Of a stretch of 64,000 nt of DNA, positions 2,963 through 18,232 are shown piece by piece (position 1 is the first letter of the stretch; each line of letters begins with the position of its first letter). Where the stretch lies: positions 372,001-436,000 of the forward strand of contig JAHBTY010000004.1 of NCBI GenBank assembly GCA_019638355.1, written 5' to 3'. Under the pieces are notes generated by a model. That model had not been told where the DNA came from. It did no database searches and saw nothing but the letters and a program-made list of their open reading frames with translations. The position numbers and the translations under genes were made by a program. This DNA comes from Cyclobacteriaceae bacterium (GTDB lineage: Bacteria; Bacteroidota; Bacteroidia; Cytophagales; Cyclobacteriaceae).

Positions 2963-4807
2963 CTATTTGTTCAGGTTAAAGAAATCTTTCAGTTTACCCT
3001 CTACATCGTACATTCTAAACTCCAGCATACCTTGATTAACCGTAATGGTACAATAGTGATGACCGCGGAAAGTTTTGGCGCTGAACCAGGCACGCGAGGG
3101 CGCAAAATCTTCCAGGTTACCGCCACTGCCTCCGGTTTGTATGTAAACAACACCATTGCTTGAATGTACATTGTTTCGGGTAATTGGTAAGGTGCGTTGG
3201 TAGGTGTGCAAGTGTCCAAAAAAAACCATATCTACCCCGTACTTTTCATACAAGGGTACAATTTTACGAATAGCCACATCACCTTGTTGCGAAGCACCAC
3301 TCCATGAATCACCGTAGTCATCTTCATCGGCCGAATAGGGCGCGTGGTGATGCGCCACAAATTTCCATTTTGCTATTGATGCTCTCAATTCTTTCTCCAA
3401 CCAAAGGTATTGGGCTCCACCCGGTGCAAATTCTTTTTCTTCATTGCTGTTCAGCATAAAAAAGTCTGCATTACCGTACGAAAATTTATAAAACCCACCT
3501 TTGGGTATGGATGGATGGTATTGATTAAACCAATGCAAATCGGCTTCGCCATTACCTGCAACCGGATAAACAGGAACACGGCTTGCTAATTGTGTAATAC
3601 CTGCAAAGTACTCGTAGTTCCATTCAAACTTCTGATCTTTAAAACCACCATCGGTAAGATCGCCTACCAGCAACACAAAATTTGGGCGTTCGCCCCAAAT
3701 TAATTTGGAGGTACGATCAGAAATATGAGGCCTGGCTTCCGTATCGCCAATGATAGAGAAGCTAAAGGAACTGCTATCTTGTACGGCAGTAGCAAAAGTA
3801 AGCACCCCCGACTCCATTGTATTGCCTTTCCGATCAGTGGCTTTAATCGAATAGAAGTAAGGAGTTTCTGGAGCTAAACCGGCAAGGGTAGTTTTATAAA
3901 TAAACGATTTATCGCTGCGTTCCGTGGTAGAACTAACATCTTTAACCTCCACCCTTTTATCCAACGGAAGTTTTGTTCCGTACCATATTTCAAAATCAGC
4001 GGCTCTATCTGTTTCCCATACAATATCAATACTGTTTTGCGAGGCATGGGTTAGATACGGGCCGGCTGTAAAATGAAAGAGGCCGGGGTATAAAACTCCT
4101 TTCGTCACAAGGCTTCCCAGTTCATCGTATCGCGCTTTTATTTGCTGAAGCGTTAATGCCCTATCGGATATTTTTATCATTCGTACCAGGTTACCGAATT
4201 GCATGTAGGGTTCTTCGCGCATGTAGGCAGCCAGTTCAAGCTCGTATTGCAGCGGATCTTGTACCGCGCGAGCACCAACCTCTTTTTCGCCAATCAATAC
4301 CCCATTCAGGTATAAACTCATTTTTTTATTTTGATAGGTTGCTACCAGGTGCGACCAATATTTTTTAAAGCCGCGATCTTTTATATGATGATCGATTACG
4401 GCAGCATAAACTGATTTTTGGGTTTTTAAACTATATACAACTTGTCTGTTAAAATAGCCCAACAACCATTCCGGTTCGGCTGCCTGAAATTTTGGTTTTA
4501 CTGTTACCAATGCACCCACAGGTTTATTAACATGATTCGAAATCCAAAGCTCAACTGTAAAAGACTCTGTTGGCAGTTTCGTTGCCTGTATTAAATTTCT
4601 TAGCCGGGACGTTGGCTCCTCACCAAAAAAAAGCAATGGTAGCGGCTCGGTTGCCACCGTAGGCATGGGCGCCAACGGAAGCGGCAGCCGGTTGCCCGGA
4701 ATGTTTCGGGCTTTATCATTTAAAACATACTCGGGCCAAAACCAAAATTCCTGTGCAATGCATACATGGTTACCGACAATCAACAAACACCAGATTAATT
4801 TTTTCAT
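2963..4807 (-). CDS. secreted LamG + FN3 + purple-acid-phosphatase-like metallophosphoesterase
   Basis: The 614-residue protein has a signal peptide (MKKLIWCLLIVGNHVCIAQ). Next comes a LamG/concanavalin-like region (about 75-240, including SFTVELWI), then an FN3-like purple acid phosphatase N-domain (about 245-345, starting HFTAGPYLTHASQ), and a metallophosphoesterase domain. Visible motifs are GDTE (about 353), GDLTDGG (about 381), AGNGEAD (about 417), HHHAPY and GHLHTYQR (about 530). The third motif is normally GNHE/D; here the catalytic-acid His is Gly, so chemistry or specificity may differ. ATG overlaps the stop of the preceding phosphatase gene by four bases (ATGA), indicating translational coupling. 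The lectin-like domain suggests the enzyme is targeted to a glycan or surface. It probably hydrolyses phosphomonoesters or diesters outside the cytoplasm. Confidence 0.85.
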   Translation of the reverse strand: MKKLIWCLLIVGNHVCIAQEFWFWPEYVLNDKARNIPGNRLPLPLAPMPTVATEPLPLLFFGEEPTSRLRNLIQATKLPTESFTVELWISNHVNKPVGALVTVKPKFQAAEPEWLLGYFNRQVVYSLKTQKSVYAAVIDHHIKDRGFKKYWSHLVATYQNKKMSLYLNGVLIGEKEVGARAVQDPLQYELELAAYMREEPYMQFGNLVRMIKISDRALTLQQIKARYDELGSLVTKGVLYPGLFHFTAGPYLTHASQNSIDIVWETDRAADFEIWYGTKLPLDKRVEVKDVSSTTERSDKSFIYKTTLAGLAPETPYFYSIKATDRKGNTMESGVLTFATAVQDSSSFSFSIIGDTEARPHISDRTSKLIWGERPNFVLLVGDLTDGGFKDQKFEWNYEYFAGITQLASRVPVYPVAGNGEADLHWFNQYHPSIPKGGFYKFSYGNADFFMLNSNEEKEFAPGGAQYLWLEKELRASIAKWKFVAHHHAPYSADEDDYGDSWSGASQQGDVAIRKIVPLYEKYGVDMVFFGHLHTYQRTLPITRNNVHSSNGVVYIQTGGSGGNLEDFAPSRAWFSAKTFRGHHYCTITVNQGMLEFRMYDVEGKLKDFFNLNK

Positions 4808-6399
4808 TTTGCTACATGTTGTTTATCAAGCAGGTTGTTATTTAAATCGTACACAAACCAATTCAGGTTGTTGTTCGAAATTCGAAACCTGATGTAATGA
4901 TGAGTTTTAATCAGGGTATCCATAAGCGGCTGTGCGGATGATTCGTCTGGCTCCAATGAACCACCTCCACCACCGGTAATGATAAAATGTGTTTGTTGTT
5001 TGCCATACGTTTTTGTTAATCGCTCGTAATCATGCGTATGCCCCGCTATAACAAAATCAATTTGCGCACTTTTCATCACGGGTTCCAATAAATTCCGAAC
5101 AATTGCATCGCCCTCGTATCCTGGCCATCCTTGCGAGTAAGGCGGTTGATGTAACACAATGAATCGCCATGTAGCTTGTTTCCACTGGTCGGATTGAAGT
5201 TGCTGATAAAACCAGGCCTGTTGCTTTTCATCAAATTCAATAGGGAATTGTGTATTGGCATCCAGCGCTATAAAAGCACAGTTGGCATACGTCCACGCAA
5301 AGTAAGGTTTACCTGCTGGTGAAGCATATTGATGATACAAGTGAGGATATAAGGTTGTATAGTAGCCATCATAGTCGTGGTTACCGGCCACCAAGTATGC
5401 CGGTTTGTTCGCGGCATAGCCCGACAATATTCCTGAAAACGTTCGCCATTGTTCTGCATCGCTGCCATTGCCTACCAAATCGCCAGCGCCAATAGTAAAT
5501 GCATCGGCTCCCAACTGCATGTGGTGAATGAGTTTCTGAAAATTGTACCAACCCGATTGACTATCGCCCCAAATCGTGAATGTGAACACCGGCTCCTCAA
5601 CTTTAACGGAATAAACAGGGGTACAATAACTATCGGAACAAATTTTATAAAACCAATTCTGTTGCAGCGCGGGAACGTGAAAGGTTAACAATTCACCCGA
5701 TTTTTGTTCGGAATAGTTTAACTCATTAGCACCAATACCCCAGTGCATTGTTACAGGTTGTGCATCCGCTAAAATTCGTACCGTATAAATGGAATCGGCA
5801 CGCGTAAGCCAAGGCCCAATTAAAAATGGTGTTGATGCATCCATTTTTAATGTGGTGCGTTCGTGTTTGCGTTTTAGAGCCAATTGGTTTTCATTCTGCT
5901 GCAGCAGGCTTTTATACTTTGCGTTGCTGTAGTACGAAACCTGCTTTAGCCCACCGGACATTGCATTGTTTAGCACCCGAATTAAAACTATGGCGTGTTC
6001 GGCTGCTGTTACGTTAAATACATCGCCATGAACCCGCTCAGCCGGTTTACCATTTATCCAAACCTGAGCACCATCATCCGATCGTACGCTCAACACTCCA
6101 TCCTGCGGAACAGTAATTTTTTGAAGGTACCACAAAGCAGTATTGGGAAGCAACACGCGATGCGGTAACTTGGTCAAACTATCGGGTTGCGGCAGAATAG
6201 CAGGCACCAACTCTTCACCGGCCAAGCCTTTTGTAAACCTCCAACCCGTTTCAAATACAGTATCGGGTACGATGTTAACTTTAGCAGGTTGCCAGGTAGC
6301 ATCGGGTGTTTGCCAAATTGTTGAATAAGGCAATGGCTTAGTCTTTTCAACCTGGCAACCAAAAAAAATGATTGCTACCAAGCAACATTTAAACTTCAC
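4804..6399 (-). CDS. purple-acid-phosphatase-like metallophosphoesterase lipoprotein
   Basis: This 531-residue protein begins with a lipoprotein signal (MKFKCCLVAIIFFGC), so it is probably anchored in a membrane. After an N-terminal beta-rich region and a PAP-type FN3 domain, the phosphoesterase domain shows a regular motif set: GDSQ (about 277), GDLVG (about 304), GNHD (about 337), HQPPY and GHTHDYER (about 452). The start codon is GTG at 6397-6399, immediately after the TAA of the upstream phosphodiesterase gene with no gap, which supports coupling. It forms a phosphatase pair with the LamG-containing neighbour. Unlike that neighbour, it keeps the catalytic His of GNHD. The substrate is not readable from sequence. 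Confidence 0.86.
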   Translation of the reverse strand: MKFKCCLVAIIFFGCQVEKTKPLPYSTIWQTPDATWQPAKVNIVPDTVFETGWRFTKGLAGEELVPAILPQPDSLTKLPHRVLLPNTALWYLQKITVPQDGVLSVRSDDGAQVWINGKPAERVHGDVFNVTAAEHAIVLIRVLNNAMSGGLKQVSYYSNAKYKSLLQQNENQLALKRKHERTTLKMDASTPFLIGPWLTRADSIYTVRILADAQPVTMHWGIGANELNYSEQKSGELLTFHVPALQQNWFYKICSDSYCTPVYSVKVEEPVFTFTIWGDSQSGWYNFQKLIHHMQLGADAFTIGAGDLVGNGSDAEQWRTFSGILSGYAANKPAYLVAGNHDYDGYYTTLYPHLYHQYASPAGKPYFAWTYANCAFIALDANTQFPIEFDEKQQAWFYQQLQSDQWKQATWRFIVLHQPPYSQGWPGYEGDAIVRNLLEPVMKSAQIDFVIAGHTHDYERLTKTYGKQQTHFIITGGGGGSLEPDESSAQPLMDTLIKTHHYIRFRISNNNLNWFVYDLNNNLLDKQHVAK

Positions 6400-7485
6400 T
6401 TACTTAAGTTGTAGCGGTTTACCAGCCTTACCCATTTGTGTAAAGGTTATGCCTAATAAACCAGCCGCTGTTGCTGCCACCTGATTCTGGTAAAGTTGGC
6501 CACTTGATTTTACTTCACCTTTCGGAGTTACGCCCGCTCCTATTGCAGCAATCCAAATCTGATCAGCTCCTTTAATTTTTGTACCATGGCTGCGCCATTC
6601 ATCCACTGGAATGGTACCACGACCATGATCGGTGGTAATCAGTATGGTTGTTTTGTTTTGGTATTGTGGTTGCGATTGTACCCACTCCCAAATATTTTTT
6701 ATAAACTGATCGGTTTGGTAAGCGGATTTAAGATACGCATCGTACTTTCCGTTGTGCGCAAAATCATCTGTTTCGCCATAGGCAATATAGACTACGCGGG
6801 GTTTATACTTCTTCATATATTCCAAAGCAAAGTGGTGTGTAAAAGCATCTAACCTTACACCTCCCCACGGACTGGGTATTTCAACCTGCAGTTGATTTAA
6901 AAATTTTTCTCTATCCGATAAGTTTTTATCAACGGCCGATTCAAAACCAGCATTAACCGGAATGCCACTGCGTTCTTCATTAATAATGAATGGGAAAACA
7001 TCCCACGAGCCAAAAGCGGCTACCTTACCTTTGTACTTAGCTTGTTTGTTTAAAAATTCTAAAACGGTTTCGTTGGGGTTATTCATCTTATCATTACTCT
7101 TTATCCGTTCATCATCGGCAAACCCCGATAAGATTTCGTTATACCCCGGATACGAAAACCACATGTAATTGGAACAGTTAACATTATTACCATAAGCACG
7201 ATTTCCATATAATACACCTTGCTTCACCAATGTGCTCCAGAAAAAAGGCATCAACTTTTCTCTCCGTACTTCAGCTTGTTCATGCCAGAAGCGTGTTCGC
7301 AAATCGTTTTCATCGTCCACATATTTTTTATCTTTTATAAGAGCCGAATCAGCTCCGGTAAAAACTTCCTGCCAGCGCATGCCATCCAGTGTAATAATAA
7401 TTACATTCTCAGCGGGTGCCTGCGCGCTAACCAATTGCGCCTTAAAAAGGAGAAGCACGAATACGAAACGTAAAGCTATTTTCAT
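6400..7485 (-). CDS. alkaline-phosphatase-superfamily phosphodiesterase/phosphatase, exported
   Basis: The 361-residue protein has a signal peptide ending around LVSAQA, then IIITLDGMRWQEVF, the first metal-binding motif of the NPP/alkaline phosphatase superfamily (LDGxR). The stretch FSYPGYNEILSGF fits the nucleophile loop (usually [T/S]xPxxxxxxTG), with Ser the likely nucleophile. Further metal-ligand motifs are GETDDFAHNG and ITTDHGRG. Members hydrolyse phosphodiesters, phosphomonoesters or phosphonates; phosphonoacetate hydrolase PhnA is in the same superfamily, so a phosphonate ester substrate is possible but unproven. It lies downstream of SusD after a terminator and heads the three-gene phosphoesterase run. 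Confidence 0.85.
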   Translation of the reverse strand: MKIALRFVFVLLLFKAQLVSAQAPAENVIIITLDGMRWQEVFTGADSALIKDKKYVDDENDLRTRFWHEQAEVRREKLMPFFWSTLVKQGVLYGNRAYGNNVNCSNYMWFSYPGYNEILSGFADDERIKSNDKMNNPNETVLEFLNKQAKYKGKVAAFGSWDVFPFIINEERSGIPVNAGFESAVDKNLSDREKFLNQLQVEIPSPWGGVRLDAFTHHFALEYMKKYKPRVVYIAYGETDDFAHNGKYDAYLKSAYQTDQFIKNIWEWVQSQPQYQNKTTILITTDHGRGTIPVDEWRSHGTKIKGADQIWIAAIGAGVTPKGEVKSSGQLYQNQVAATAAGLLGITFTQMGKAGKPLQLK

Positions 7486-7679
7486 GTGATATAGAAAAAT
7501 TAAAAGTTAATTAAACCGCGGTTTTACCTTAAAAAGTTATTTGTCAGGTGTAAAAGTAAGTGTTTAATGATCTGGTGATTTTTCTGATGTGCGATCTGAA
7601 TAAACAAATCACGAAGTCAGATTTCTTACTCTCCAGAACACTTCATCATATTTCGTTCTTTTTCAAACTTAAATAAGTT

Positions 7680-7707
7680 TAAAAAAAAGCCAGGAGAAAA
7701 TCTCCTG
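7680..7707 (-). terminator. Rho-independent terminator after susD-like gene
   Basis: The hairpin CAGGAGA-AAA-TCTCCTG (7691-7707) is followed, on the minus strand, by a run of eight T residues (A-tract 7681-7688). It sits 37 bases past the SusD stop, so the SusCD transcript probably ends or is attenuated here before the phosphoesterase genes. The remaining intergenic DNA (7486-7679) presumably holds the promoter of those genes, but no consensus was recognised. Confidence 0.8.
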
Positions 7708-7743
7708 ACTGTTAAACACCAAAACACTACAATTAAATCCCAA

Positions 7744-9282
7744 TTAATTACTGTCCCACCAAACCGGTGTATTAATATTATCCGCACCTTGCCTGGCAAC
7801 AGCTGCATTGCGGTTAGTTGCATTTAGCGATTGCTCAGACTGTGGATAAATAAAACGCACAGGAATTTTATTGTCGTTCAGATTGCTGGAGCCGGGCAAT
7901 AAAACTGGTAATCCCGTTCTGCGCCAGTCAAACCAGGCTTCCAGGCCATTGAAAAATAAAGCCACCCATTTTTGGCTTGCTATCTTGGCTAATTTCTCGG
8001 CAGTTGTTCCTGTGTAAACTACGCCTGCCTGCGTGTAATAGTCAGCGGGAAGTGTTAGGTTAATTCCATACTCAGCCGGAACAATGGATGCGTAGTAGCT
8101 CATATTAGCACTTATTCCATTCAAGTAGAATGTTTCTGCCGATCCCGTTGTGATCAGATTCTTTTCGCGAGCTTCGGCAAGAATAAACTGAAGTTCGGCA
8201 TAGGTCATTAACAAACCACGCGCAACGTTAGCTTGTGGTGGATTTTGATTGGCATCATTACAAACCAAACAAGCGAATGTGTAACCCACGCGTGAAATAT
8301 TTTGTGGCCCACCATTATAGCTCAATGCCTGGGTATCTTCCAAACCATTTGGAATGCCAGCTATAACAGGTGTACCGGCTGCAACGGAGTTTTGTGTAGG
8401 GCGTGCAAAAACATTAATTCGCGGATCATTTAATGATGCAAGATAATCGCCTAACGTTTTGCTTAGTCTGAACTCATCAAACGAGCCTACGCGCGTGGCA
8501 TAAAGCGGCCATTGGTTAGGGGCTGATGCAAGGTAAACAAGCGCTGCATTATCAGCATTGCTTTCTAAGATAGGAAACTGTGTAGGGTTGCTTAGTATTT
8601 CCTGCATATCGGCTGCTACGTTCCGCTTGTTTGAAATTCGCATCAGGTAACGGAGGCGAAGTGAATTTGCCAACTTGCGCCATTTCAGAATCGCGGCTGT
8701 ACCACCACCATACAAAATATCACCGGCCAATGTTTCAGAGCTACTTCCTAAAATCTGGTTCGCAGTTCTTAAGTCAGCCAGAATACCATTGTAAACAGTT
8801 TCCTGTGCATCATAAACCGGTTGGTAAATGGCTGAGGATTTTCCTTTTGTGGCTTCTGTGTAAGGAATATCGCCATACGCATCGGTTGCAAGTGAAAACA
8901 TCCACGATTTTAATACCAGGGCAACACCGAGGTAGTTGTTTTGAACAGGTGTTGAATTTTGAGCGAAGTCGATAATATTTTGAACATTACGCATGTTTCC
9001 ATACACGGTGTTCCACACACCGTTTAACTCACCCCACAGGTAGCGGTCTTCGTTTACAAACTGAATTTTTGCAGTATGTTGAACAACTATATTTCCAATA
9101 CCCCAGGCCTCGCCTACCTGGCTATTTAACGTATTCCGAATGATACCTGATAATAATAGATCGGGCGTTACCGATGTCGGTACATTTTTATTCGTGTTGA
9201 TGTCTTCAAAATCAGAGTCGCACGAGAATACAATCAACATGGCAGCGAGCACCACGATTGTTCTTTTAAATGAAGTCTTCAT
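7744..9282 (-). CDS. SusD/RagB-like outer-membrane nutrient-binding lipoprotein
   Basis: The 512-residue protein starts with a lipoprotein signal (MKTSFKRTIVVLAAMLIVFS then Cys) and the N-terminal motif CDSDFEDINTNKNVPT, typical of the SusD-like_2 branch. The TPR-like body includes a C-terminal segment where KWVALFFNGLEAWFDWRRTG matches the conserved 'qkWiaLf.ng.eaW.dwRRtg' stretch of the family. SusD proteins cap the SusC porin and deliver ligands at the cell surface. It lies 18 bases downstream of the SusC stop. Given the neighbouring phosphoesterases and phosphonate genes, the ligand may be a phosphorus-containing molecule rather than a plain glycan; this is inference. Confidence 0.94.
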   Translation of the reverse strand: MKTSFKRTIVVLAAMLIVFSCDSDFEDINTNKNVPTSVTPDLLLSGIIRNTLNSQVGEAWGIGNIVVQHTAKIQFVNEDRYLWGELNGVWNTVYGNMRNVQNIIDFAQNSTPVQNNYLGVALVLKSWMFSLATDAYGDIPYTEATKGKSSAIYQPVYDAQETVYNGILADLRTANQILGSSSETLAGDILYGGGTAAILKWRKLANSLRLRYLMRISNKRNVAADMQEILSNPTQFPILESNADNAALVYLASAPNQWPLYATRVGSFDEFRLSKTLGDYLASLNDPRINVFARPTQNSVAAGTPVIAGIPNGLEDTQALSYNGGPQNISRVGYTFACLVCNDANQNPPQANVARGLLMTYAELQFILAEAREKNLITTGSAETFYLNGISANMSYYASIVPAEYGINLTLPADYYTQAGVVYTGTTAEKLAKIASQKWVALFFNGLEAWFDWRRTGLPVLLPGSSNLNDNKIPVRFIYPQSEQSLNATNRNAAVARQGADNINTPVWWDSN

Positions 9283-9300
9283 AAATTTCTTTGTAGCTGT

Positions 9301-12300
9301 TTAAAATTTCAAACCAATGTTTACGCCATAACTTCTGGATGAAGGAATAGACATATATTCTATTCCAGGAAGTGCTGTGCCACCGGTGTAGGACATTACT
9401 TCCGGATCGATGTGGGGAACATCGGTCCACAAGGCCAGGTTACGACCTACAAATGCAATGCTTACACTGCGGAAAGGGGTTTTACTGAAAAACTTATCGG
9501 GGAACATGTAGCCCACTTGCAGCTCGCGCAGTTTTACAAATGATGCATCGTAAATAACACCCTCCGCAATATTGCGGCCGCCCGTCCAGGCGGTGTGCCA
9601 TTGGCGTGGCAATACTCTTCTTGTATTTACACTAAAGGTACCATCACCGTTTGCTACAACACCATCGCCAATTACGTAAGTACCTTCGGGTGCATTCAGC
9701 AATTGCGGATCGGCCGTTACCGAAGCTTGGGGATAGTAACCATTTTCACGGCCTTGCAAGGTTTCTACGATAATACCACCCTCGCGACCAACTGTTTGGG
9801 TTTCAGAATATACTTCACCACCCTGACGGATATCGAATAATACTCCAACTTTAATTCCTTTAAATGTAAAGGTGTTGTTTATACCGGCCATCCAGTCGGG
9901 ATTGTAATTACCTAACTTGATTCGATCGGTAGTACGTACCGGGCGGCCTTGAGCATCGAATACCATTTCGCCAACAAACTGGCCATTGGCACTGTAGTAC
10001 GGTTTGGATGGATCGTTGTTTTGTACCCGCGCAAAACCAATTCCATACATATCGCCCATGCGCTCACCCACGCGGGCTTCAATGGTTACTCTGCGGCTGG
10101 CCATTACAAAGTTGGTTAACCCGTCTGATAGCGACATTACTTCACTTCTATTGCGCGAATAGTTGATGTCTAAATTCCATTGAAAGCCGTTGCTCAACTT
10201 AACCGGAATACTGTTCAACATAACTTCTACACCATAGTTTTTAATTTCACCGGCATTGATTGCGCGGCTGTTGTAGCCACTGGTTAGCGACAACGGAATA
10301 TTTAAAATTTGATTGCGTGTACGGGTTTGATAGTATGTAACATCCAGGCCTAAGCGGCCACCAAAAAATTTAACATCCAAACCTGTTTCGTATGAAGTAC
10401 TGATTTCAGGTTTAAGGCTAAAGTTGGCTAAACGATCGGTTTCGCCATAAACTTGAGCTGTTCCAAACGGATCGCCCGGGTTGTAAGATTGTGTAAAAGT
10501 AAAGGCATCGGTATCGTTCCCTACCTGTGCTACGCTGGCACGCACTTTTAAGAAAGAAAGAAAATCGGGCAGCGTTACCATATCCGATACTACAGCACTT
10601 AACGCAGCCGATGAATAGAAATAGGAATTATCAGCCGAACCAATGCCGGCATCTTTTAATGCTTGTGGTAAGGTAAGTGCACTTGACCAATCATTACGGG
10701 CGGTTAGGTCAAGGAATAAAATGTTTTTATAACCCACTTGTGCCGATGCATACAAACTGTTGATGCGTTTTTGAACATCGCTTTGAGATGTTTGCAGCGG
10801 AGCCCTGAAATTAGTAAGGTTATAAATACCCGGCAGGTTTAACTGGGGTGCATTTACTTCCAGGTATTCTGATTTTTGGTATAATTGATTACCGCCTACT
10901 GAAGCCATCAGTGTAAACGTGGATGGTACCAATTCTTTATTAAAGGTTAACAAAAAGTCAGAGTTACGTTCTTCTGACACAATATTTACTTCGCGGTATT
11001 GCCCGAATGGAAAGCGTTGTGAAGTAAAGGCCCTGCGGAATTGCCTGCGTTCATTGGCATAATCGGTTGCTGTACGCACTTGCAAACTCAACCACTTCGT
11101 AAAATCATACTTCAACGAAATATTCCCAATCATTCTATCAACATACTGGCCGTTGGTATTTTCATAAACGGTAAAGTACGGATTGTCATGATAGTTGTAA
11201 TTAAAGTTGAACTGTCTTCTGCCTTCCAGGCCGGGCATCCAGTAATTTTCCAATGCGCTCATATCCACACTGCGAGGCAACCAGCAATTGAACAAGTACA
11301 TGATATTCTCAGTACCATAACTAATGGATGGACGGTTATCGCTCTCGCTCTTGATGTAACTTACAAATGCACGAGCCGAAAATTTAGGGCTCAGGTTATA
11401 GCCACCACCAAACGAAATGGTGTTACGTTTCAAATCTGTATTCGGAACCGTACCGGTTTGATTCAGATTGGTATAGGAAAGTCTGAAATCGCCTTTATCA
11501 TTGGCGCCTACAAGGGCCACGTTGTTGGTAAGTGTTCTTCCGGTTTGAAAAAAGTTTTTAATTCCATCCGGATCGGCTAACCACGGTGTGGGAGTTATTA
11601 TACTTCCTGCAGGAGCATTCAAATCACCACCTCTGAAAGCAATGGGTTGGCCACCCAATGTACGAGGTGAATTAAACTGTGGATAGAGCTGGCCATTAAA
11701 GGCCGGTCCCCAGCTTTCATCCACACCATCAGTCATACCGGCACCTGCTCCATTTACAAATGAAAAATCGCCACCATTGCCATTACCTTGTCCATAAACA
11801 TTTTGGTATTCTGGCAAGCGCAGTACCGATTCGTAAGTTGAGTTGGAATTAATTTCAACGCCCAAACCTTTAGAGCCTTTGCCCGATTTGGTTTTAATAA
11901 CAATTACACCATTGGCTGCACGCGATCCGTAAAGGGCTGCTGCTGCTGCTCCTTTTAAAACAATCATGGATTCAATATCATCAGCATTTACAAAACCGGC
12001 ACCGTTTCCAAAATCAACTTCCAAGTTATTTCTGCCTGAGGCCCCTGTTATGCCATTGCTAATAGGTACACCATCAACAACATACAATGGTTGATTTTTA
12101 TTTAAGTCAACCGAACGTTCGCCCCGGATGCTTACCCGCGAGGAACCACCAATACCCGAAGGGCTTCCAATTACCGTAACACCTGCAACCTTACCGGCCA
12201 ATTGATTCACCACATTTGTTTCGCGAGCCGTGGTTAGATTTTCAGCGCTAACACTTTGAAGCGAATAGCCTAACGCTTTCTTATCTTTTTCGATACCCAA

Positions 12301-12657
12301 CGCAGTTACTACAACTTCTGAAAGTTCGGTAGCATCTACTGCTAATGTTACATCTACAGTAGCACGGCCACCCACTGCTACCTCTTGTACTTTAAAACCC
12401 ACAAACGAAAATACCAATACATCCGATTGGGCTGCGGCAATGGTATATTGGCCATCGGCATTGGTAATGGTACCATTCGAAGTTCCTTTTATCAGGATAT
12501 TTACACCAGGTATCGGGCTGTTATCTTCAGCCGAAATAACCTTGCCGGAAACGGTGCTTTGTGCCGCAGCAGTAAACCCTGCCAACACAAGCACCAATAG
12601 AGCAATCGTACAAATAGATTGCCCGGTGATTCTGAAAACATGTAGCGGTTGATTCAT
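9301..12657 (-). CDS. SusC/RagA-like TonB-dependent outer-membrane transporter
   Basis: The likely start is ATG at 12655-12657 (MNQPLHVFRITGQ...), giving 1118 residues; a GTG 45 bases upstream would add a non-signal-like N-terminus. After the signal peptide comes a carboxypeptidase-regulatory-like domain (STVSGKVISAEDNSPIPGVN), then a TonB-box/plug start (LSEVVVTALGIEKDKKALGY), the plug domain with the SusC hallmark GAAAAALYGSRAANGVI, and the 22-strand barrel ending in ...GVNIGLKF. It imports ligands across the outer membrane using TonB energy, paired with the SusD gene 18 bases downstream. It is transcribed divergently from the XRE-cupin regulator and phosphonate genes, which suggests shared control. 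Confidence 0.95.
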   Translation of the reverse strand: MNQPLHVFRITGQSICTIALLVLVLAGFTAAAQSTVSGKVISAEDNSPIPGVNILIKGTSNGTITNADGQYTIAAAQSDVLVFSFVGFKVQEVAVGGRATVDVTLAVDATELSEVVVTALGIEKDKKALGYSLQSVSAENLTTARETNVVNQLAGKVAGVTVIGSPSGIGGSSRVSIRGERSVDLNKNQPLYVVDGVPISNGITGASGRNNLEVDFGNGAGFVNADDIESMIVLKGAAAAALYGSRAANGVIVIKTKSGKGSKGLGVEINSNSTYESVLRLPEYQNVYGQGNGNGGDFSFVNGAGAGMTDGVDESWGPAFNGQLYPQFNSPRTLGGQPIAFRGGDLNAPAGSIITPTPWLADPDGIKNFFQTGRTLTNNVALVGANDKGDFRLSYTNLNQTGTVPNTDLKRNTISFGGGYNLSPKFSARAFVSYIKSESDNRPSISYGTENIMYLFNCWLPRSVDMSALENYWMPGLEGRRQFNFNYNYHDNPYFTVYENTNGQYVDRMIGNISLKYDFTKWLSLQVRTATDYANERRQFRRAFTSQRFPFGQYREVNIVSEERNSDFLLTFNKELVPSTFTLMASVGGNQLYQKSEYLEVNAPQLNLPGIYNLTNFRAPLQTSQSDVQKRINSLYASAQVGYKNILFLDLTARNDWSSALTLPQALKDAGIGSADNSYFYSSAALSAVVSDMVTLPDFLSFLKVRASVAQVGNDTDAFTFTQSYNPGDPFGTAQVYGETDRLANFSLKPEISTSYETGLDVKFFGGRLGLDVTYYQTRTRNQILNIPLSLTSGYNSRAINAGEIKNYGVEVMLNSIPVKLSNGFQWNLDINYSRNRSEVMSLSDGLTNFVMASRRVTIEARVGERMGDMYGIGFARVQNNDPSKPYYSANGQFVGEMVFDAQGRPVRTTDRIKLGNYNPDWMAGINNTFTFKGIKVGVLFDIRQGGEVYSETQTVGREGGIIVETLQGRENGYYPQASVTADPQLLNAPEGTYVIGDGVVANGDGTFSVNTRRVLPRQWHTAWTGGRNIAEGVIYDASFVKLRELQVGYMFPDKFFSKTPFRSVSIAFVGRNLALWTDVPHIDPEVMSYTGGTALPGIEYMSIPSSRSYGVNIGLKF

Positions 12658-12905
12658 ATAGGTGTTTGGTTTTTGAATTTTGTTCAAAACTTCACAAAAC
12701 ACTTCATCGCAGGTTTAGTTAGAAATTATGCATTCATTAATAAGCGGTGCTGCCTGCCCAACTTTGATAACCTTGCAGTAAATTGACATAGAGTAAACTT
12801 CACAACAGTTGTCTTTTACTTCGTTTTTGTGTTAACATTCGATTAATAAATCAATCCGGCCTTTACTTCATCAGAAAAAGTTTCCAAATAGGAAACAAAA
12901 ACAAC
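12658..12905. promoter_or_regulatory. divergent promoter region between SusC and the XRE-cupin regulator
   Basis: This 248-base, A/T-rich gap separates the SusC gene (minus) from the regulator gene (plus), so both promoters must lie here. It contains a perfect inverted repeat just before the regulator (listed separately). It also contains ATTTTGTTCA at 12677-12686, a 10-mer that recurs at 13505-13514 in front of the FAD oxidoreductase gene. No clear Bacteroidota -7 element (TAnnTTTG) was found by eye. Confidence 0.5.
12880..12896. promoter_or_regulatory. inverted repeat GTTTCC-N5-GGAAAC, candidate operator
   Basis: GTTTCC (12880-12885), spacer AAATA, GGAAAC (12891-12896) is a perfect dyad ending nine bases before the ATG of the XRE-cupin gene. 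The position would block translation or transcription of the regulator, which fits autoregulation by a dimeric HTH protein. The 6-bp arms are short, so chance cannot be excluded. Confidence 0.4.
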
Positions 12906-13478
12906 ATGCAAGACGAACTGATTGGCCGCATTGGCAAAAGAATCAAGGCTTTACGAAATGCGCGTGGGTTAACCTTACAACTGCTAAGCGAGCGTGCACA
13001 CATCACCAAAGGTTTGTTATCCAAGATTGAAAACTCCAGAACCATTCCTTCGCTACCCGTTTTCTTACAAATTGTACAAGGGCTTGAAATTTCGGCTCAG
13101 GACTTTTTTGAGGATATGAAATTGGTACAAGGGAAAAATTATCTTTACATCAGAAAAACAGATTATCAATCCGTTGAAAAAGAAGACCGGCCGGGTTTTA
13201 CGTATCAAACTATCTTAACGCAAAGTTTGCAATCTACCACCATGGAAGTGGTACTCTTAACTTTACAACCCCGTACACAAAGTAACCCTACCACCACCGA
13301 TGGCTTTGAATTTAAATTCATGATCTCCGGTCGTTGTCTGTATCGCATAGAAGATGAGGAGCTTTTGTTACAGGAGGGAGATTCGCTTTACTTTGATGCC
13401 TCGCGCCCTCATCATCCGCTTAACCCATTCCGCAAGCAGGTTACCATGTTGGTGTGCTACTTCTTAACATCTAAATAA
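12906..13478 (+). CDS. XRE-family HTH regulator with C-terminal cupin domain
   Basis: The 190-residue protein has an N-terminal Cro/C1-type helix-turn-helix (about 8-65; IGKRIKALRNARGLTLQLLS, KGLLSKIENSRTIPSL). A double-stranded beta-helix sensor follows (about 105-185; LTLQPRTQSNP, FMISGRCLYRIEDEE, EGDSLYFDASRPHHPL). XRE-cupin proteins of this layout commonly control amine, amino acid or organophosphorus catabolism and sense a small ligand in the cupin. It is the first gene on the plus strand and leads into the phosphonate genes after a 57-base gap, while facing away from SusC. It is therefore the obvious candidate regulator of both arms. The ligand is unknown; an aminophosphonate is an inference from context. 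Confidence 0.88.
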   Translation: MQDELIGRIGKRIKALRNARGLTLQLLSERAHITKGLLSKIENSRTIPSLPVFLQIVQGLEISAQDFFEDMKLVQGKNYLYIRKTDYQSVEKEDRPGFTYQTILTQSLQSTTMEVVLLTLQPRTQSNPTTTDGFEFKFMISGRCLYRIEDEELLLQEGDSLYFDASRPHHPLNPFRKQVTMLVCYFLTSK

Positions 13479-13491
13479 AAATTAAGGTATT

Positions 13492-13519
13492 CAAAATGAA
13501 TTACATTTTGTTCATTTTG
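13492..13519. promoter_or_regulatory. CAAAATG/CATTTTG repeats, candidate operator before the FAD oxidoreductase gene
   Basis: CAAAATG (13492-13498), spacer AATTA, CATTTTG (13504-13510) is a perfect 7-bp dyad with the same 5-base spacer as the dyad in front of the regulator. A third half-site, CATTTTG, follows at 13513-13519, ending 16 bases before the ATG at 13536. The cluster of three half-sites in a 57-base gap suggests a regulator binding site. The sequence differs from the 12880-12896 dyad, so both need not bind the same protein. Confidence 0.45.
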
Positions 13520-13535
13520 CAGAAGAATATAAAAT

Positions 13536-14693
13536 ATGAATTCAAATCACTATGACCTTATTGTAATAGGAGCAGGCGTGTTGGGTACCTTTCATGCCTA
13601 CCATGCAGCAGCAGCCAATAAAAAGGTTTTACTAATAGAAAAAGACCTGCACCCCATGCAGGCAACCGTTCGCAATTTCGGGCAAGTGGTACCCTCGGGT
13701 ATGAGTAACGATTGGTTTCAATTTGGAGTTTATTCCACCCAATTGTATAAAACCATTCAAGCTGATTATAACATAGGTATTCGTCAAAACGGAAGTGTTT
13801 ACCTGGCATCGGATAAAGATGAACAACAATTGCTGCACGAATTAAAACAACGCATGGATGCGCGCGGCTATGAAGCGCAATTGTTAACCACCACACAATG
13901 CCTGACGCGGTGGCCCGTGCTACACAAAGAATATTGCCGCGAAGGTTTATTCTTTCCGCAGGAAGTTAGCGCTGAGCCAAATGTATTGATTCATCATTTA
14001 CTCAAGTATTGCACCCTTCGCTTTCCCAACCTTAGCTATCATACTTATACAACCATTCATGCCTGCGAAGTAATAAACAACCAGGTAAAGGTAGTAAGTA
14101 GTGCGGGGCTCTCGTTTACCGCCAGCAAATTGATAATTTGCAATGGCAGCGAGTTTAAAATTCTTTTTGCTGATTTGTTTGCAAAGAGTGGCATTGTGGT
14201 AAGCAAATTGCAAATGTTGCGTACGCAACCCATGCCGGCATTACCATTAGAGGGCAATATTCTAACTGGCCTCACCACGCGCAGATACGAATCGTTTGAA
14301 GAATGTCCATCGTTCTCCAAAATTAAAACCCCGCACCATCTGCAAGAATTGAAACAATGGGGTATTCATATCCTGTTTAAAAAAGCAATAGATGGTTCTG
14401 TTATTGTGGGCGACTCGCATGAATACATGGAGGTTGGCAAAGAGGAGCCGAGCTACGAACTTAACCAACATATTAATAACCTGATGTGGCAGGAGGCCGC
14501 GCGCATCGTAGATATGAAAGAATGGAAGTTGAGTGCAGCGTGGGCCGGTTATTACTCCCAACATCCACAAAAGGATATTGTAGAAATTGATATCGAAAAC
14601 CGAATTCACATCCGCACTGCCATTGGCGGAAAAGGTATGACCTCTTCGGCAGGCTATGCTCAAAAAAGTATAAACCAGTTACTACCCGATTAA
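13536..14693 (+). CDS. FAD-dependent oxidoreductase of phosphonate catabolism (TIGR03364 type)
   Basis: The 385-residue D-amino-acid-oxidase-fold flavoprotein begins with the Rossmann FAD site DLIVIGAGVLGTFHAY and shows VRNFGQVVPSG at about residues 45-55. That signature is characteristic of the TIGR03364 clade, which is repeatedly found next to PhnX-like phosphonatases. Members are proposed, and some related recurrent enzymes reported, to oxidise the amine of aminoethylphosphonate-type compounds to the aldehyde. The likely reaction here is oxidative deamination of an aminophosphonate to a phosphonoacetaldehyde-like product for the PhnX-like hydrolase at 16833-17519. It has no signal peptide and is cytoplasmic. 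Next gene is 21 bases downstream. The exact substrate (AEP, N-methyl-AEP or 1-hydroxy-AEP) cannot be read from sequence. Confidence 0.86.
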   Translation: MNSNHYDLIVIGAGVLGTFHAYHAAAANKKVLLIEKDLHPMQATVRNFGQVVPSGMSNDWFQFGVYSTQLYKTIQADYNIGIRQNGSVYLASDKDEQQLLHELKQRMDARGYEAQLLTTTQCLTRWPVLHKEYCREGLFFPQEVSAEPNVLIHHLLKYCTLRFPNLSYHTYTTIHACEVINNQVKVVSSAGLSFTASKLIICNGSEFKILFADLFAKSGIVVSKLQMLRTQPMPALPLEGNILTGLTTRRYESFEECPSFSKIKTPHHLQELKQWGIHILFKKAIDGSVIVGDSHEYMEVGKEEPSYELNQHINNLMWQEAARIVDMKEWKLSAAWAGYYSQHPQKDIVEIDIENRIHIRTAIGGKGMTSSAGYAQKSINQLLPD

Positions 14694-14714
14694 ATCGTTG
14701 CCAACTTTACCCGC

Positions 14715-15548
14715 ATGTGGACTAACTATCATACTCATAGCAACTATTGCGATGGCAAGGAATCGCCTGCAATATATTTGAATGATCCTGCCATATGCAG
14801 CCTGGGGTTTTCATCGCACGCGCCACTTCCTTTTGATTGCAAGTGGTGCATGCCTTCTAAAAAGCTGGAGGCATATTTTACTGAGATTGCAGCGTTAAAG
14901 CAAAGCAGCCCAATTGAAATTTATTGTGGCCTGGAGGTGGATTTTATTCCAGGCTTAATAAGCCCAAAAGATTTTACGCAAGCCGATTATACCATTGGAT
15001 CAATTCATTTTGTTGAACAGTTTGAAAATACCCCTTGGGAAATTGATGGTTTACATACAACTTTTACCGAAGGATTGGATAAGATTTTCAAGAACTATTA
15101 CCGCGCTGCCTGGTGCCGGTATTTTGAACTAACCCGCCAAATGCTGATTGAATCTCAGCCGGATGTGCTGGGACATCTCGATAAAATGAAAATCCAGAAT
15201 TTGGGTAACAAATACTTTCATGAAAATGAATCATGGTATCAACAAGAAATAAGAAGTTTGTTGAAAGTAGCTTCACAAACCAATACCATTATAGAAATCA
15301 ATACCCGCGGCATTTATCAACAAAAATCTGAAACCACCTACCCATCGCCCTGGATATTGGAATTGATGAAAACACTGAACATCCGGGTTACCATCAGTTC
15401 CGATGCACACCATCCAAAAGATTTATGTAATCAGTTTGAACTTGCCGCCTCCTTATTACTTAAAGCTGGTTATAAAAAAATCACCATCCTGAAAGATGGT
15501 GTTTGGAAAGAAGTTAACTTTAACGAAAACGGAATTGGTAGTTCATGA
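14715..15548 (+). CDS. PHP-domain phosphoesterase (histidinol-phosphatase-like)
   Basis: The 277-residue protein carries PHP metal-site motifs: NYHTHSNYCDG (about 4-14), FSSHAPLPF, CGLEVDFIPG, GSIHFV and ISSDAHHP near the C-terminus. These match HisJ/HisK-type histidinol-phosphate phosphatases. No other his gene is present, and the gene is locked between the FAD oxidoreductase (21-base gap) and the DUF5690 transporter (4-base ATGA overlap). A role on a phosphorylated or phosphonate-ester intermediate of the locus is therefore more likely than histidine synthesis, though the second is not excluded. Cytoplasmic; no signal peptide. Confidence 0.85.
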   Translation: MWTNYHTHSNYCDGKESPAIYLNDPAICSLGFSSHAPLPFDCKWCMPSKKLEAYFTEIAALKQSSPIEIYCGLEVDFIPGLISPKDFTQADYTIGSIHFVEQFENTPWEIDGLHTTFTEGLDKIFKNYYRAAWCRYFELTRQMLIESQPDVLGHLDKMKIQNLGNKYFHENESWYQQEIRSLLKVASQTNTIIEINTRGIYQQKSETTYPSPWILELMKTLNIRVTISSDAHHPKDLCNQFELAASLLLKAGYKKITILKDGVWKEVNFNENGIGSS

Positions 15549-16849
15549 CGGAAAAGCACAAGCTTACACGATGGCTCGAAGCAACCCACACAGTTTGGTT
15601 TACCATCTATGCATCGTTTTGTGCTTTCGCCCTATATACCTGCGTATATGCTTTTCGAAAAACTTTTGCTGTAGCCACCTTTAGCGGGCATACCTTTGCT
15701 GGTTTCGATTATAAAGTATGGCTAGTAACTTTTCAGGTAATGGGGTATGCACTGGCCAAGTTTATCGGAATTAAAGTTATCTCTGAATTAAAGGCTCACT
15801 CACGCGGTTTTGGAATATTGCTGATGGTGGCCATTGCCGGTGTTTCGTGGTTGTTATTTGCACTGGTGCCAGCACCCTATAATATAATTTTTCTGTTTAC
15901 AAACGGTCTGCCGTTGGGCATGGTGTGGGGAATGGTTTTTGGCTACCTGGAAGGAAGGCGCATGACAGAAGTATTGGGTGCTTCGCTTGCAGTAAGTTTC
16001 ATTTTTTCGGCAGGATTATGTCGTTCAGCGGGTGCCTATATCATGAGCGCGTGGGGTACTTCGGAATATTGGATGCCCTTTGTAGCGTGTTGTTTGTTTT
16101 TACTACCGTTGTTAATTTTTCAATTTCTGTTAGATAAACTTCCACCCCCATCCGATAAAGATGAACAACTACGAACTAAACGGTTGCCCATGAATGCGGA
16201 TGAACGAAGAGCATTTACGCACGCGTTCTTACCGGGCATTGTTCTGTTTACACTATGCTATGTATTGCTTACTGCATTTCGCGATTTTCGCGATAATTTT
16301 TCTGCCGAAATATGGAAGAGTCTGGATATGGGTAACGATCCTTCCATCTACACCAAAACTGAAATTCCGGTATCGTTAATTGTATTGATTTGTATTGGCA
16401 GTTTAATGCTGATTAAAAACAATAAGCTTGCGCTGATGGTTAACCACTTAATTATTGCATTCGGCATGATTCTGATCGGCCTTGCCAACTTACTATTTGA
16501 AGCAAATATTATTGATCCTGTAGTATGGATGACGTTAGTAGGCGTGGGTTTATACTTGGGTTACATTCCGTTTAACAGCATCTTTTTCGATCGGTTAATT
16601 GCGGCCTTTAAATATGTAGGTACTGTAGGCTTTATTATGTATGTGGCCGATTCATTCGGCTATTTAGGAAGTGTTGCTGTTCTGTTCTACAAAAATTTCT
16701 TTCAAAAGGGTCTTAGCTGGCTTAACTTCTTTATAACCGGAGGTTACATCATGTCAATAGCAGGCACCTTACTAATACTGGGTTCTATGTTGTACTTCCA
16801 TCAAAAACACCGAAACTGGAAAAAACAACTGCCTACCGAAGTCCAATGA
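15545..16849 (+). CDS. DUF5690-like major-facilitator transporter, candidate organophosphonate permease
   Basis: The 434-residue polytopic membrane protein has about 12 hydrophobic segments. Its N-terminus (FALYTCVYAFRKTFAVATF) recalls the 'Y..Y..RK.F' region of the organophosphate:phosphate antiporter (GlpT/UhpT) group of the major facilitator superfamily. The sequence resembles the Bacteroidota DUF5690 family. ATG overlaps the PHP gene stop (ATGA), so the two are translationally coupled, and the 3' end overlaps the convergent PhnX-like gene by 17 bases. In this setting it is the only inner-membrane importer candidate for the phosphonate; no ABC-type PhnCDE or PhnSTUV genes are present. Transport function is inferred from fold and position. 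Confidence 0.8.
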   Translation: MTEKHKLTRWLEATHTVWFTIYASFCAFALYTCVYAFRKTFAVATFSGHTFAGFDYKVWLVTFQVMGYALAKFIGIKVISELKAHSRGFGILLMVAIAGVSWLLFALVPAPYNIIFLFTNGLPLGMVWGMVFGYLEGRRMTEVLGASLAVSFIFSAGLCRSAGAYIMSAWGTSEYWMPFVACCLFLLPLLIFQFLLDKLPPPSDKDEQLRTKRLPMNADERRAFTHAFLPGIVLFTLCYVLLTAFRDFRDNFSAEIWKSLDMGNDPSIYTKTEIPVSLIVLICIGSLMLIKNNKLALMVNHLIIAFGMILIGLANLLFEANIIDPVVWMTLVGVGLYLGYIPFNSIFFDRLIAAFKYVGTVGFIMYVADSFGYLGSVAVLFYKNFFQKGLSWLNFFITGGYIMSIAGTLLILGSMLYFHQKHRNWKKQLPTEVQ

Positions 16850-17519
16850 TAGTAAGTACTTCATCTACGTTTTCAGCAAGGTGTGTGTGTGGTTCATTCT
16901 TTAATTGCTCAGGTGTATAAGCTCCGGTTGTAATACCGATTACAAAACGGCAACCGGCATTTGTACCTTCCTGCATGTCGCTGGCCGTATCACCAACTTT
17001 GGCAACAGCTTTTATATCGGTAACACCGGTTCGCTTCATGGCTTCAAAAATCATATCGGGCGCGGGGCGTCCGTTATCAACTTCATCGCTGGTAATACTG
17101 GCATCCAGTAAGCCTCTTTTTTCCCAACCCAGTCGATTAAGAAGTTCATTGGTAATTTCTCTATCAAAACCGGTATCAACCGCCACCTTTATTCCGGCCT
17201 TCTTCAAGGCTGCAAACGTTTCGCTTACACCTTGCTTTTCACCAACCGAAACATCGTATCGGTAAAAATCAATCATATTATCAACAAAGTAACGATGGAT
17301 CGCTTCTACCCGCTTCTCATCAAAAGAAGTTGCACCACCATCCATCAAAAGTTTTCTGATTGCTACCGGCTTGGGTATTCCCATTAAATCGGTTGCCTGT
17401 TGCAGGCTGGTATTAACACCACCCAGTTCTACAAGGGCCCTTTGTAATACACGAGGCACATCCAAATTATCCTTTACAGTAGTGCCGGCAAGGTCAAATA
17501 CTACAAGTTGTGTCTGCAT
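16833..17519 (-). CDS. PhnX-like phosphonatase (HAD superfamily, TIGR03351 type)
   Basis: The 228-residue HAD-family hydrolase opens with VFDLAGTTVKD (nucleophile Asp9). The second Asp of DxD is replaced by Ala, giving the DxAGTT form that marks phosphonatases. Residues MGIPKPVAIRKLL place Lys50 where the Schiff-base lysine of phosphonoacetaldehyde hydrolase sits in the cap. NGRPAPD puts Arg in place of the usual HAD Lys, and KVGDTASDMQEG is the metal motif. All core features for C-P hydrolysis of phosphonoacetaldehyde or a hydroxylated analogue are visible. The product would be the aldehyde plus phosphate. It is convergent with the transporter gene (17-base overlap) and divergent from the PhnZ-like gene. 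Confidence 0.87.
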   Translation of the reverse strand: MQTQLVVFDLAGTTVKDNLDVPRVLQRALVELGGVNTSLQQATDLMGIPKPVAIRKLLMDGGATSFDEKRVEAIHRYFVDNMIDFYRYDVSVGEKQGVSETFAALKKAGIKVAVDTGFDREITNELLNRLGWEKRGLLDASITSDEVDNGRPAPDMIFEAMKRTGVTDIKAVAKVGDTASDMQEGTNAGCRFVIGITTGAYTPEQLKNEPHTHLAENVDEVLTIIGLR

Positions 17520-17668
17520 TTATGTTTTTACTTTTAAAAAAGTAATGTTAGAGATAACAAGCACCATAAAAAACCTTTAACCAAAATATTAATCATTTGA
17601 TAATAGTATATTCGTTGGCAACCATACCAACACTTTCAAAATTGCACCATTATAAACGGGCATAATTT
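17520..17668. promoter_or_regulatory. divergent promoter region between PhnX-like and PhnZ-like genes
   Basis: This 149-base A/T-rich gap must contain both promoters. It has a dyad ACTTTT-AA-AAAAGT (17530-17543) close to the PhnX-like start. TATATTCG at 17607-17614 differs in one position from the Bacteroidota -7 consensus TAnnTTTG and is suitably placed for the PhnZ-like gene. None of these sites is strong. Confidence 0.3.
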
Positions 17669-18232
17669 ATGAATGCACAACAAACTACAGCCGAGATTTT
17701 TGAACTCTATGAAAAATTTGGCCGGGCCGATTATATTGGCGAGCCTGTTTCACAAATTGAACACATGTCGCAAGCGGCTGAGCTTGCATTAAAATCGGGT
17801 GCTGATGATGAAGTTATTCTGGCGGCCTTTTTTCATGATATTGGACACATTTGCGTTCAAAATGATGCTTCACTTCGAATGTCGGCATATGGTATTAAAA
17901 GCCACGAAGAAATAGGGGCCGGATTTTTACGCTCGCGCGGATTCTCCAACCGCATGGCCCAGTTGGTTGAGAATCATGTAAAGGCAAAGCGGTATCTCAC
18001 TTATAAATATCCTGAATACTTTAACCAGTTATCGGAAGCAAGCAAACAAACGTTGATCTTTCAAGGCGGAATGATGACCGAAGGCGAGGCCCATGAATTT
18101 GAACAAGACCCACTTTTTGAAGATAGCATCTTGCTGCGCAAATGGGATGAAGCCGCTAAGGAAATAAATGTTCCGATTCTTGACCTGGAGTGGTTAAAAA
18201 AAGTTTGTATGCGTGTACTTTCACAGGCTTAG
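17669..18232 (+). CDS. PhnZ-like HD-domain mixed-valent diiron oxygenase
   Basis: The 187-residue HD-domain protein matches the PhnZ/TIGR03276 type. Against the PhnZ residues as I recall them (Tyr24, Glu27, His34, His58-Asp59, His80, His104, Asp161), it has Tyr22, Glu25, His32, His56-Asp57 (in FFHDIGH), His79, His103 and Asp160, in the same order and near-identical spacing. All six iron ligands and the two lid residues therefore appear present. PhnZ cleaves (R)-2-amino-1-hydroxyethylphosphonate oxidatively to glycine and phosphate; relatives act on trimethylated or hydroxymethyl analogues. The usual partner PhnY (2-oxoglutarate hydroxylase) is absent from the window. It has its own promoter, facing away from the PhnX-like gene. 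Confidence 0.87.
   Translation: MNAQQTTAEIFELYEKFGRADYIGEPVSQIEHMSQAAELALKSGADDEVILAAFFHDIGHICVQNDASLRMSAYGIKSHEEIGAGFLRSRGFSNRMAQLVENHVKAKRYLTYKYPEYFNQLSEASKQTLIFQGGMMTEGEAHEFEQDPLFEDSILLRKWDEAAKEINVPILDLEWLKKVCMRVLSQA

Follow-up and report, generated by a model that had tools for sequence, protein, structure and literature searches.

Phosphate utilisation system (PUS) loci of Flavobacterium encode PusCD together with exported phosphomono- and diesterases and are induced by low phosphate; in one sentence the same paper already mentions PusCD beside phosphonate-degrading enzymes (Lidbury et al., PMC8115612). Among the enzymes that degrade phosphonates, PbfD enzymes oxidise N-methyl-2-aminoethylphosphonate (N-methyl-AEP) to phosphonoacetaldehyde, PbfD2 produces the same compound also from 2-aminoethylphosphonate (AEP), and Acinetobacter baumannii PbfD1 is annotated as TIGR03364 (PMC10590968), thus this family of flavin adenine dinucleotide (FAD) enzymes is no longer of unknown function. 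The oxygenase PhnZ sometimes occurs with phnWX or phnWAY clusters (PMC8154272). Here we describe a locus in which genes of these kinds stand together with a SusC/SusD pair. It occupies positions 2963-18232 of a 64,000-nucleotide stretch (positions 372,001 to 436,000 of contig JAHBTY010000004.1, assembly GCA_019638355.1, from a Cyclobacteriaceae bacterium), which will be called the window.

The locus consists of eleven genes, all present as open reading frames at the expected coordinates. An earlier, sequence-only reading of this DNA had listed a SusCD pair, three exported phosphoesterases, a regulator, an oxidase, a PHP protein, a DUF5690 transporter, a PhnX-like and a PhnZ-like gene, and every one of them was found in its place. 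The SusC and SusD genes and the phosphoesterase genes PDE, MPP2 and MPP1 run leftward on the minus strand, and the XRE-cupin, FAD oxidase, PHP, DUF5690 and PhnZ-like genes are on the plus strand. That much of the layout had been described correctly, but the PhnX-like gene, which had been grouped with the rightward genes, is also on the minus strand. We show below that this is a real, conserved SusCD-phosphonate locus that occurs throughout the phylum Bacteroidota, and that its uptake and C-P cleavage genes probably act as one phosphonate utilisation system.

Results

The SusCD pair and the phosphonate genes occur together in Bacteroidota

The SusC-like TonB-dependent transporter (9301-12702, minus strand, 1133 aa) scored 632.9 bits with TIGR04056 (cut-off 368.25). 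The SusD-like outer-membrane lipoprotein encoded next to it (7744-9282, minus strand, 512 aa) scored 324.3 bits with PF12771 (cut-off 27) and matched PF14322 weakly (32 bits). The window thus contains the adjacent SusC and SusD genes by which a SusCD nutrient-uptake locus is recognised.

A search of 395 Bacteroidota genomes with the TIGR03276 profile yielded full-length PhnZ-like matches (E below 1e-50) in 17 genomes, the window genome included; sixteen partial matches (E 1e-4 to 1e-3) were set aside. When the neighbourhoods of all 17 were read, SusC and SusD were found within about 10 kb of the PhnZ-like gene in 16, the SusC gene of L079 being cut by the contig end. The window genome has 17 SusC genes above cut-off in 4.49 Mb. 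At an assumed background pair frequency of 40%, the probability of finding at least 16 of 17 by chance is 4.6e-6, without correction for relatedness.

A second set was taken from named records and comprised the best 80 of at least 195 PhnZ-like loci, 47 from Bacteroidota and 33 from outside the phylum (by record title Pseudomonas, Pantoea, other Proteobacteria, Planctomycetota and Actinomycetota). Flanks of 8 kb or more on each side were available for 32 of the Bacteroidota and 23 of the outside loci. Laboratory strains that have the locus include Ohtaekwangia koreensis (L093), Runella zeae (L137) and Mucilaginibacter sp. OK268 (L108). Among the former, 29 of 32 had both SusC and SusD and 30 had at least one of them; irrespective of flank length both were present in 37/47. 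Neither gene was detected at any of the 33 loci from outside Bacteroidota, 23 long-flank loci included. The order of the genes was variable: L035, L036, L047 and L050 had the window arrangement, a second arrangement was seen in L041, L042, L052 and L053, a third in L060 and L065, and a fourth in Mucilaginibacter, for example L108 and L112. L182 and L194 have the oxidase, the PhnX-like gene, DUF5690 and SusCD, but lack an oxygenase gene within the stretch. That the partners were kept despite this reshuffling is stronger evidence of a functional connection than a fixed gene order would be.

The association was also tested in the reverse direction, by searching 390 genomes with the window SusD and examining 25 of the 68 rows obtained. 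All six SusD genes of the window type, with at least 51% identity (L037, L047, L086, L091, L172 and the window itself), were located beside phosphonate genes. A second type of SusD, searched with the L035 protein, gave 18 matches, of which 12/14 with at least 43% identity and 0/4 with 40% or less were beside phosphonate genes; the two unlinked ones in the upper group were L192, accompanied by PDE alone, and L193, with neither PDE nor phosphonate genes. A quick tree was made with 88 SusD rows, 65 of them linked to phosphonate genes; the linked rows fell mainly in two clades (22 and 41 rows), with L148 and L182 standing apart. The tree needed four label changes as compared to a mean of 20.5 after shuffling, and none of 500 shuffles gave a number as low. 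It must be noted that the tree came with long-branch warnings and that its unlinked rows had been picked for their closeness to the window SusD or from its own genome, thus the wider diversity of SusD is little covered.

The co-occurrence in 16/17 and 29/32 loci, its absence from the 23 long-flank loci outside the phylum and the reverse test led us to reject a chance neighbourhood. The sequence-only reading had made its proposal depend on adjacency in relatives, and the SusCD and phosphonate genes do stay together.

Predicted enzymes of C-P bond cleavage

The PbfD-type FAD amine oxidase (13536-14693, plus strand, 385 aa), which contains the sequence VRNFGQ, passes TIGR03364 with 340.1 bits (curated cut-off 285.1). 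The otherwise matching locus L047 has an oxidase that also passes TIGR03364, but shares only 26% identity with the window enzyme and is encoded in the other orientation. The oxidase has been exchanged between these loci, perhaps with a shift in the preferred N-substituent. In the window genome the best match to PhnW (TIGR03301) was 59.2 bits, far below the cut-off of 360.8, thus a PhnWX pair is lacking and phosphonoacetaldehyde probably comes from the oxidase, a role proposed for PbfD2 elsewhere (PMC10590968). There was no match to the phosphoenolpyruvate mutase model TIGR02320 in this genome. The lack of both PhnW above cut-off and the mutase indicates that the genome degrades phosphonates rather than makes them, and phosphonate biosynthesis or surface tailoring was rejected for want of a TIGR02320 match.

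The PhnX-like HAD hydrolase gene (16833-17519, minus strand, 228 aa) is convergent with the DUF5690 gene. Its product is barely above the cut-off of TIGR03351 (219.4 vs 218.9 bits). Residue K50 aligns with the PhnX lysine that is an arginine in entry 2ioh. K50 was present in 56/56 sequences, and D9, A11, G12 and T13, belonging to the DxAGT motif, in 55/56 (one gap). We take K50 to be the Schiff-base lysine; with it and the DxAGT motif the protein has the features expected of a PhnX-like hydrolase. On one contig (G198:C4) the region with DUF5690, the PhnX-like gene and the FAD oxidase was found twice with equal scores (L058 and L059), which may reflect segmental duplication or be an artefact of the assembly.

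The PhnZ-like HD oxygenase of the TIGR03276 type (17669-18232, plus strand, 187 aa) matched the solved PhnZ with an E value of 5e-44 and TmpB with 2e-29. PhnZ-type enzymes follow the rule of H-HD-H-H-D iron ligands and a YxxE loop (PMC8177086), which correspond here to H32, H56-D57, H79, H103 and D160, and to Y22-E25. The ligands and the loop were invariant in 71/71 Bacteroidota PhnZ-like sequences, which identifies these proteins as PhnZ-type HD oxygenases; 12 of the 14 counted sites were invariant, only E80 and S122 varied. In L036 (2800-3400, reverse orientation) the PhnZ-like match is in two pieces and the open frame has just 141 aa, perhaps owing to a broken frame or an assembly error. 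The PhnZ-like proteins of Pseudomonas (L096, L097, L099, L101, L102, L104-L106 and L111) have 55-60% identity to the window protein. They are as close to it as many Bacteroidota sequences, which makes transfer between phyla likely.

The hydroxylase PhnY*, the partner of PhnZ, was not seen: by-eye comparison of the 17 genomes found neither PhyH nor TauD (Pfam) in the neighbourhood of a PhnZ-like gene. Elsewhere in the window genome there is a single PhyH protein, which scored 21.5 bits with the methylphosphonate hydroxylase model (cut-off 500) and has unrelated-looking neighbours, although there may be a divergent hydroxylase. That PhnZ occurs with no PhnY* beside it points to the uptake of hydroxy-AEP in its finished form. 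(R)-hydroxy-AEP was first isolated from Acanthamoeba polysaccharides, and hydroxy-AEP was reported in the membrane lipids of a predatory bacterium (PMC8154272).

DUF5690, a candidate transporter

The DUF5690 protein (15545-16849, plus strand, 434 aa; 555.8 bits, cut-off 25), whose frame shares 4 bases with that of the PHP gene, has a major facilitator superfamily (MFS) fold. We examined 40 of the 87 DUF5690 places listed in the order. SusC was present at 13 of the 22 loci that also had the FAD oxidase, the PhnX-like or the PhnZ-like gene, and at none of the 18 that had no such gene (Fisher test, 7.6e-5, uncorrected for relatedness). In the latter group L067 had one weak TonB-receptor match of low identity, and in the former an end-cut SusC in L069 was not counted. 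In the named-record set DUF5690 was encoded at 32/47 Bacteroidota and 0/33 other loci, whereas genes of the AEP ATP-binding cassette (ABC) importer were found only outside Bacteroidota (PhnS2 in 14/33, PhnT2 in 16/33, eleven of them from Pseudomonas or Pantoea; 0/47 in Bacteroidota). Of the evidence for DUF5690 as the carrier of the substrate, this replacement of the ABC importer is the strongest. The predicted model of the protein was a confident MFS fold (mean predicted local distance difference test score 92.3), with sialin, G6PT, SLC37A2 and SPNS2 as top solved matches and GlpT at rank 25; the fold is suggestive of organic-phosphate or anion transport, though not specifically. Our literature search, with subscription journals mostly outside its reach, found no paper on DUF5690.

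Exported phosphoesterases and the form of the substrate

Three phosphoesterases are predicted to be exported, a call made by eye from their N-termini, without a program. MPP1 (2963-4807, minus strand, 614 aa; PF00149, PF13385, PF16656) combines LamG, a purple-acid-phosphatase N domain and Metallophos, and matches purple acid phosphatases with an E value of 1e-11. MPP2 (4804-6399, minus strand, 531 aa; PF00149) is a calcineurin-like phosphoesterase of the Metallophos family whose N-terminus looks like that of a lipoprotein. PDE (6400-7485, minus strand, 361 aa; PF00884, PF01663) is a hydrolase of the alkaline-phosphatase superfamily, in which D34, S111, D240, H244, D286, H287 and H300 were kept in 36/36 sequences; as judged from superfamily membership, S111 is presumably the nucleophile and the other sites are presumably metal ligands. 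A fourth enzyme, the PHP-domain phosphoesterase (14715-15548, plus strand, 277 aa), was classified as HisJ-like by family scans.

General family scans, which did not include a dedicated library of carbohydrate-active enzymes, assigned none of the eleven proteins to a carbohydrate-active family of glycoside hydrolases, lyases or esterases, hence the locus does not have the gene content of a classical polysaccharide utilisation locus. Of domains of a sugar-binding type, just one was seen, LamG in MPP1. Recurrent neighbours at 76 Bacteroidota loci were grouped into protein clusters, one representative of each being scanned against family profiles. The most frequent (23/76) was a beta-propeller protein that includes a phosphoesterase domain (PF04185), others were a TonB receptor (11), a second PF01663 phosphodiesterase (7), a glycerophosphodiesterase (GDPD, 6) and another metallophosphoesterase (6). 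These phosphoesterases are in keeping with phosphorus compounds in ester form, with headgroups of lipids or with substituents of glycans, without telling which.

Regulatory signals and neighbouring genes

Between SusD and PDE there is a terminator-like hairpin (7688-7710, minus strand) of 10 pairs followed by a T run, identified by consensus match only; expression of the transporter pair may therefore exceed that of the phosphoesterases. The XRE-cupin regulator (12906-13478, plus strand, 190 aa) was recognised by family scans. Its best NCBIfam match was PuuR, which we take to be a nutrient regulator, at 40.5 bits, far below the cut-off of 211. Nine bases before its gene ends a perfect inverted repeat of 17 bases, GTTTCC-AAATA-GGAAAC (12880-12896). 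The arms of the repeat were not found ahead of the regulator gene in the 76 Bacteroidota loci scanned, nor was it among the five longest inverted repeats of three relatives, thus the idea of a conserved operator was rejected; the repeat is a possible operator of the window locus alone.

Next to the locus (326-2890) lies a gene for a large exported-looking Met-zincin protein (DUF4953, DUF5117, DUF5118), which had a partial match in just one of 40 relatives (L035). Further away, a tight run of an MBOAT acyltransferase gene (26246-27736) and two more frames (23679-27736) resembles a surface O-acetylation set, and 33656-36898 and 46257-50222 encode large proteins whose tails are of the type IX secretion kind (CHU_C; Por_Secre_tail together with a sortilin-like domain).

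Discussion

From this gene content we infer the following substrates, transport steps, order of steps and regulation. The SusD lid and the SusC TonB-dependent barrel would let a phosphonate-bearing ester, or just the headgroup of it, pass the outer membrane, and the exported phosphoesterases would release the aminophosphonate from the ester. The aminophosphonate taken up may be free or part of a lipid or glycan. DUF5690 could move the aminophosphonate into the cytosol. There the PbfD-type oxidase would convert AEP or N-methyl-AEP to phosphonoacetaldehyde, which the PhnX-like hydrolase would split to yield acetaldehyde and phosphate. The PhnZ-like oxygenase would cleave (R)-1-hydroxy-AEP to glycine and phosphate. 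The XRE-cupin protein would regulate the locus. The conservation, the reshuffled gene orders and the reverse SusD test strongly support the earlier view that SusCD, exported phosphoesterases and C-P cleavage belong to one functional unit; the novelty then attached to it was put too strongly.

Several observations weigh against the proposed unit. Not all loci have SusCD: in L090 (genome G533) the regulator, PDE, the oxygenase, the PhnX-like gene, DUF5690 and the oxidase are present with no SusCD nearby (a second-type pair is on another contig of this genome, L193), and the long-flank named loci L133 and L142 also lack it. Nine of the 22 phosphonate-bearing DUF5690 loci had no full SusC in the stretch. 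SusD proteins more distant from that of the window were mostly unlinked, with 0/4 at 47-50% identity, all of one other family, and 1/15 (L182) at 37-43%. Two of the enzymes fall short of curated cut-offs. The PhnX-like protein reached 114.6 bits with the PhnX equivalog TIGR01422 (cut-off 220), thus its exact substrate may differ, and the PhnZ-like protein is just under the TIGR03276 cut-off (209.9 vs 214.6 bits), as are 10/17 of the full-length matches in the phylum. PDE has no close solved relative by sequence or by fold and may cleave ordinary phosphodiesters, and it is present in 20/47 of the named Bacteroidota loci, in which PHP (2/47), MPP1 (1/47) and MPP2 (3/47) are sparse. As for DUF5690, 18/40 loci, including L034 and L049, had no phosphonate gene, which suggests that it may carry something else, or more than phosphonates; L049 does have a PDE homologue beside it. 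The fold matches of DUF5690 are also unspecific, with TM (template modelling) scores of about 0.5-0.7 and with GLUT and NorA among them.

It is conceivable, but in our estimation unlikely, that the locus is a phosphorus-scavenging island of two independent modules, in which SusCD and the phosphoesterases take ordinary di- and monoesters of phosphate (nucleic acids, headgroups of phospholipids), free AEP entering through porins feeds the phosphonate enzymes, and the two are neighbours since both help under phosphate starvation. Such an arrangement would agree with the exported enzymes being of phosphoesterase families, none of them matching a named phosphonate-ester hydrolase, with the hairpin that parts SusD from PDE, and with the phosphate-responsive SusCD loci with phosphoesterases known in Flavobacterium (PMC8115612). 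It does not explain well why the SusCD pairs fall in particular SusD groups, mostly beside phosphonate genes, and why many loci keep SusCD and the oxygenase without PDE or MPP, though partly with other phosphoesterases. We find it very improbable that the cluster serves mainly to obtain nitrogen or carbon from aminophosphonates, or to detoxify hydroxy-AEP or N-methyl-AEP, rather than to supply phosphate. Oxidative deamination would release the amine nitrogen, as can be deduced from the PbfD reaction (PMC10590968), PhnZ yields glycine (PMC8177086), racemic hydroxy-AEP inhibits E. coli (PMC8154272), and the best, albeit sub-cut-off, match of the regulator is PuuR (40.5 vs 211 bits). The exported phosphoesterases, together with the glycerophosphodiesterase and further phosphodiesterases of the relatives, fit phosphorus supply.

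If SusCD and C-P cleavage do form one phosphonate utilisation system, then SusCD-type uptake, best known for glycans, extends to reduced phosphorus, and Bacteroidota, important in soils, plants and waters, gain a defined route into the phosphonate pool. A more far-reaching combination is that DUF5690 is a new family of aminophosphonate permeases, that PDE hydrolyses phosphonate esters as an enzyme of a new kind, that two or more SusCD groups are specialised for phosphonates, and that PhnZ occurs without PhnY* since its substrate is imported as such; that all of this holds jointly seems to us somewhat less than an even chance. DUF5690 is a candidate aminophosphonate transporter for testing, and PhnZ without PhnY* would, if true, indicate that AEP in pre-hydroxylated form truly serves as a nutrient in the environment.

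It is instructive to compare the window locus with the systems described previously. Like the Sus-type polysaccharide utilisation loci, it has SusC/SusD, exported hydrolases and an adjacent regulator, but no carbohydrate-active family was found among its eleven proteins. With the PbfD-based AEP hydrolytic pathway (Zangelmi et al., PMC10590968) it shares the TIGR03364 oxidase, the PhnX-type hydrolase and the lack of PhnW, whereas that pathway, in the available description, does not include SusCD, DUF5690 or exported phosphoesterases. As in the PhnY*/PhnZ pathway (PMC8177086, PMC8154272), there is a PhnZ-like oxygenase; its ligand set is complete and the YxxE loop is present, but no PhyH or TauD gene adjoins it, so the substrate would need to arrive hydroxylated.

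The sequence-only reading had stated that no SusCD-linked phosphonate system of this form was described, a statement softened by the sentence of Lidbury et al. (PMC8115612) on PusCD. A full description of the gene set was not recognised in our literature search, which mostly did not reach subscription papers. The window locus resembles the PUS loci in having SusCD beside exported phosphoesterases in a member of Bacteroidota (PMC8115612). It differs in its SusD, the best match of which is PF12771, whereas PF07980 and PF14322 are the domains of F. johnsoniae PusD1 and PusD2. Induction by low phosphate was shown for the Flavobacterium loci (PMC8115612). The window locus is centred on a PhnZ-like oxygenase and a PbfD oxidase, while the available PUS text does not list the genes of a phosphonate PUS (PMC8115612). 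On balance the locus is best read as a variant of the phosphate-responsive SusCD loci known as PUS in Flavobacterium, one that scavenges phosphonates.

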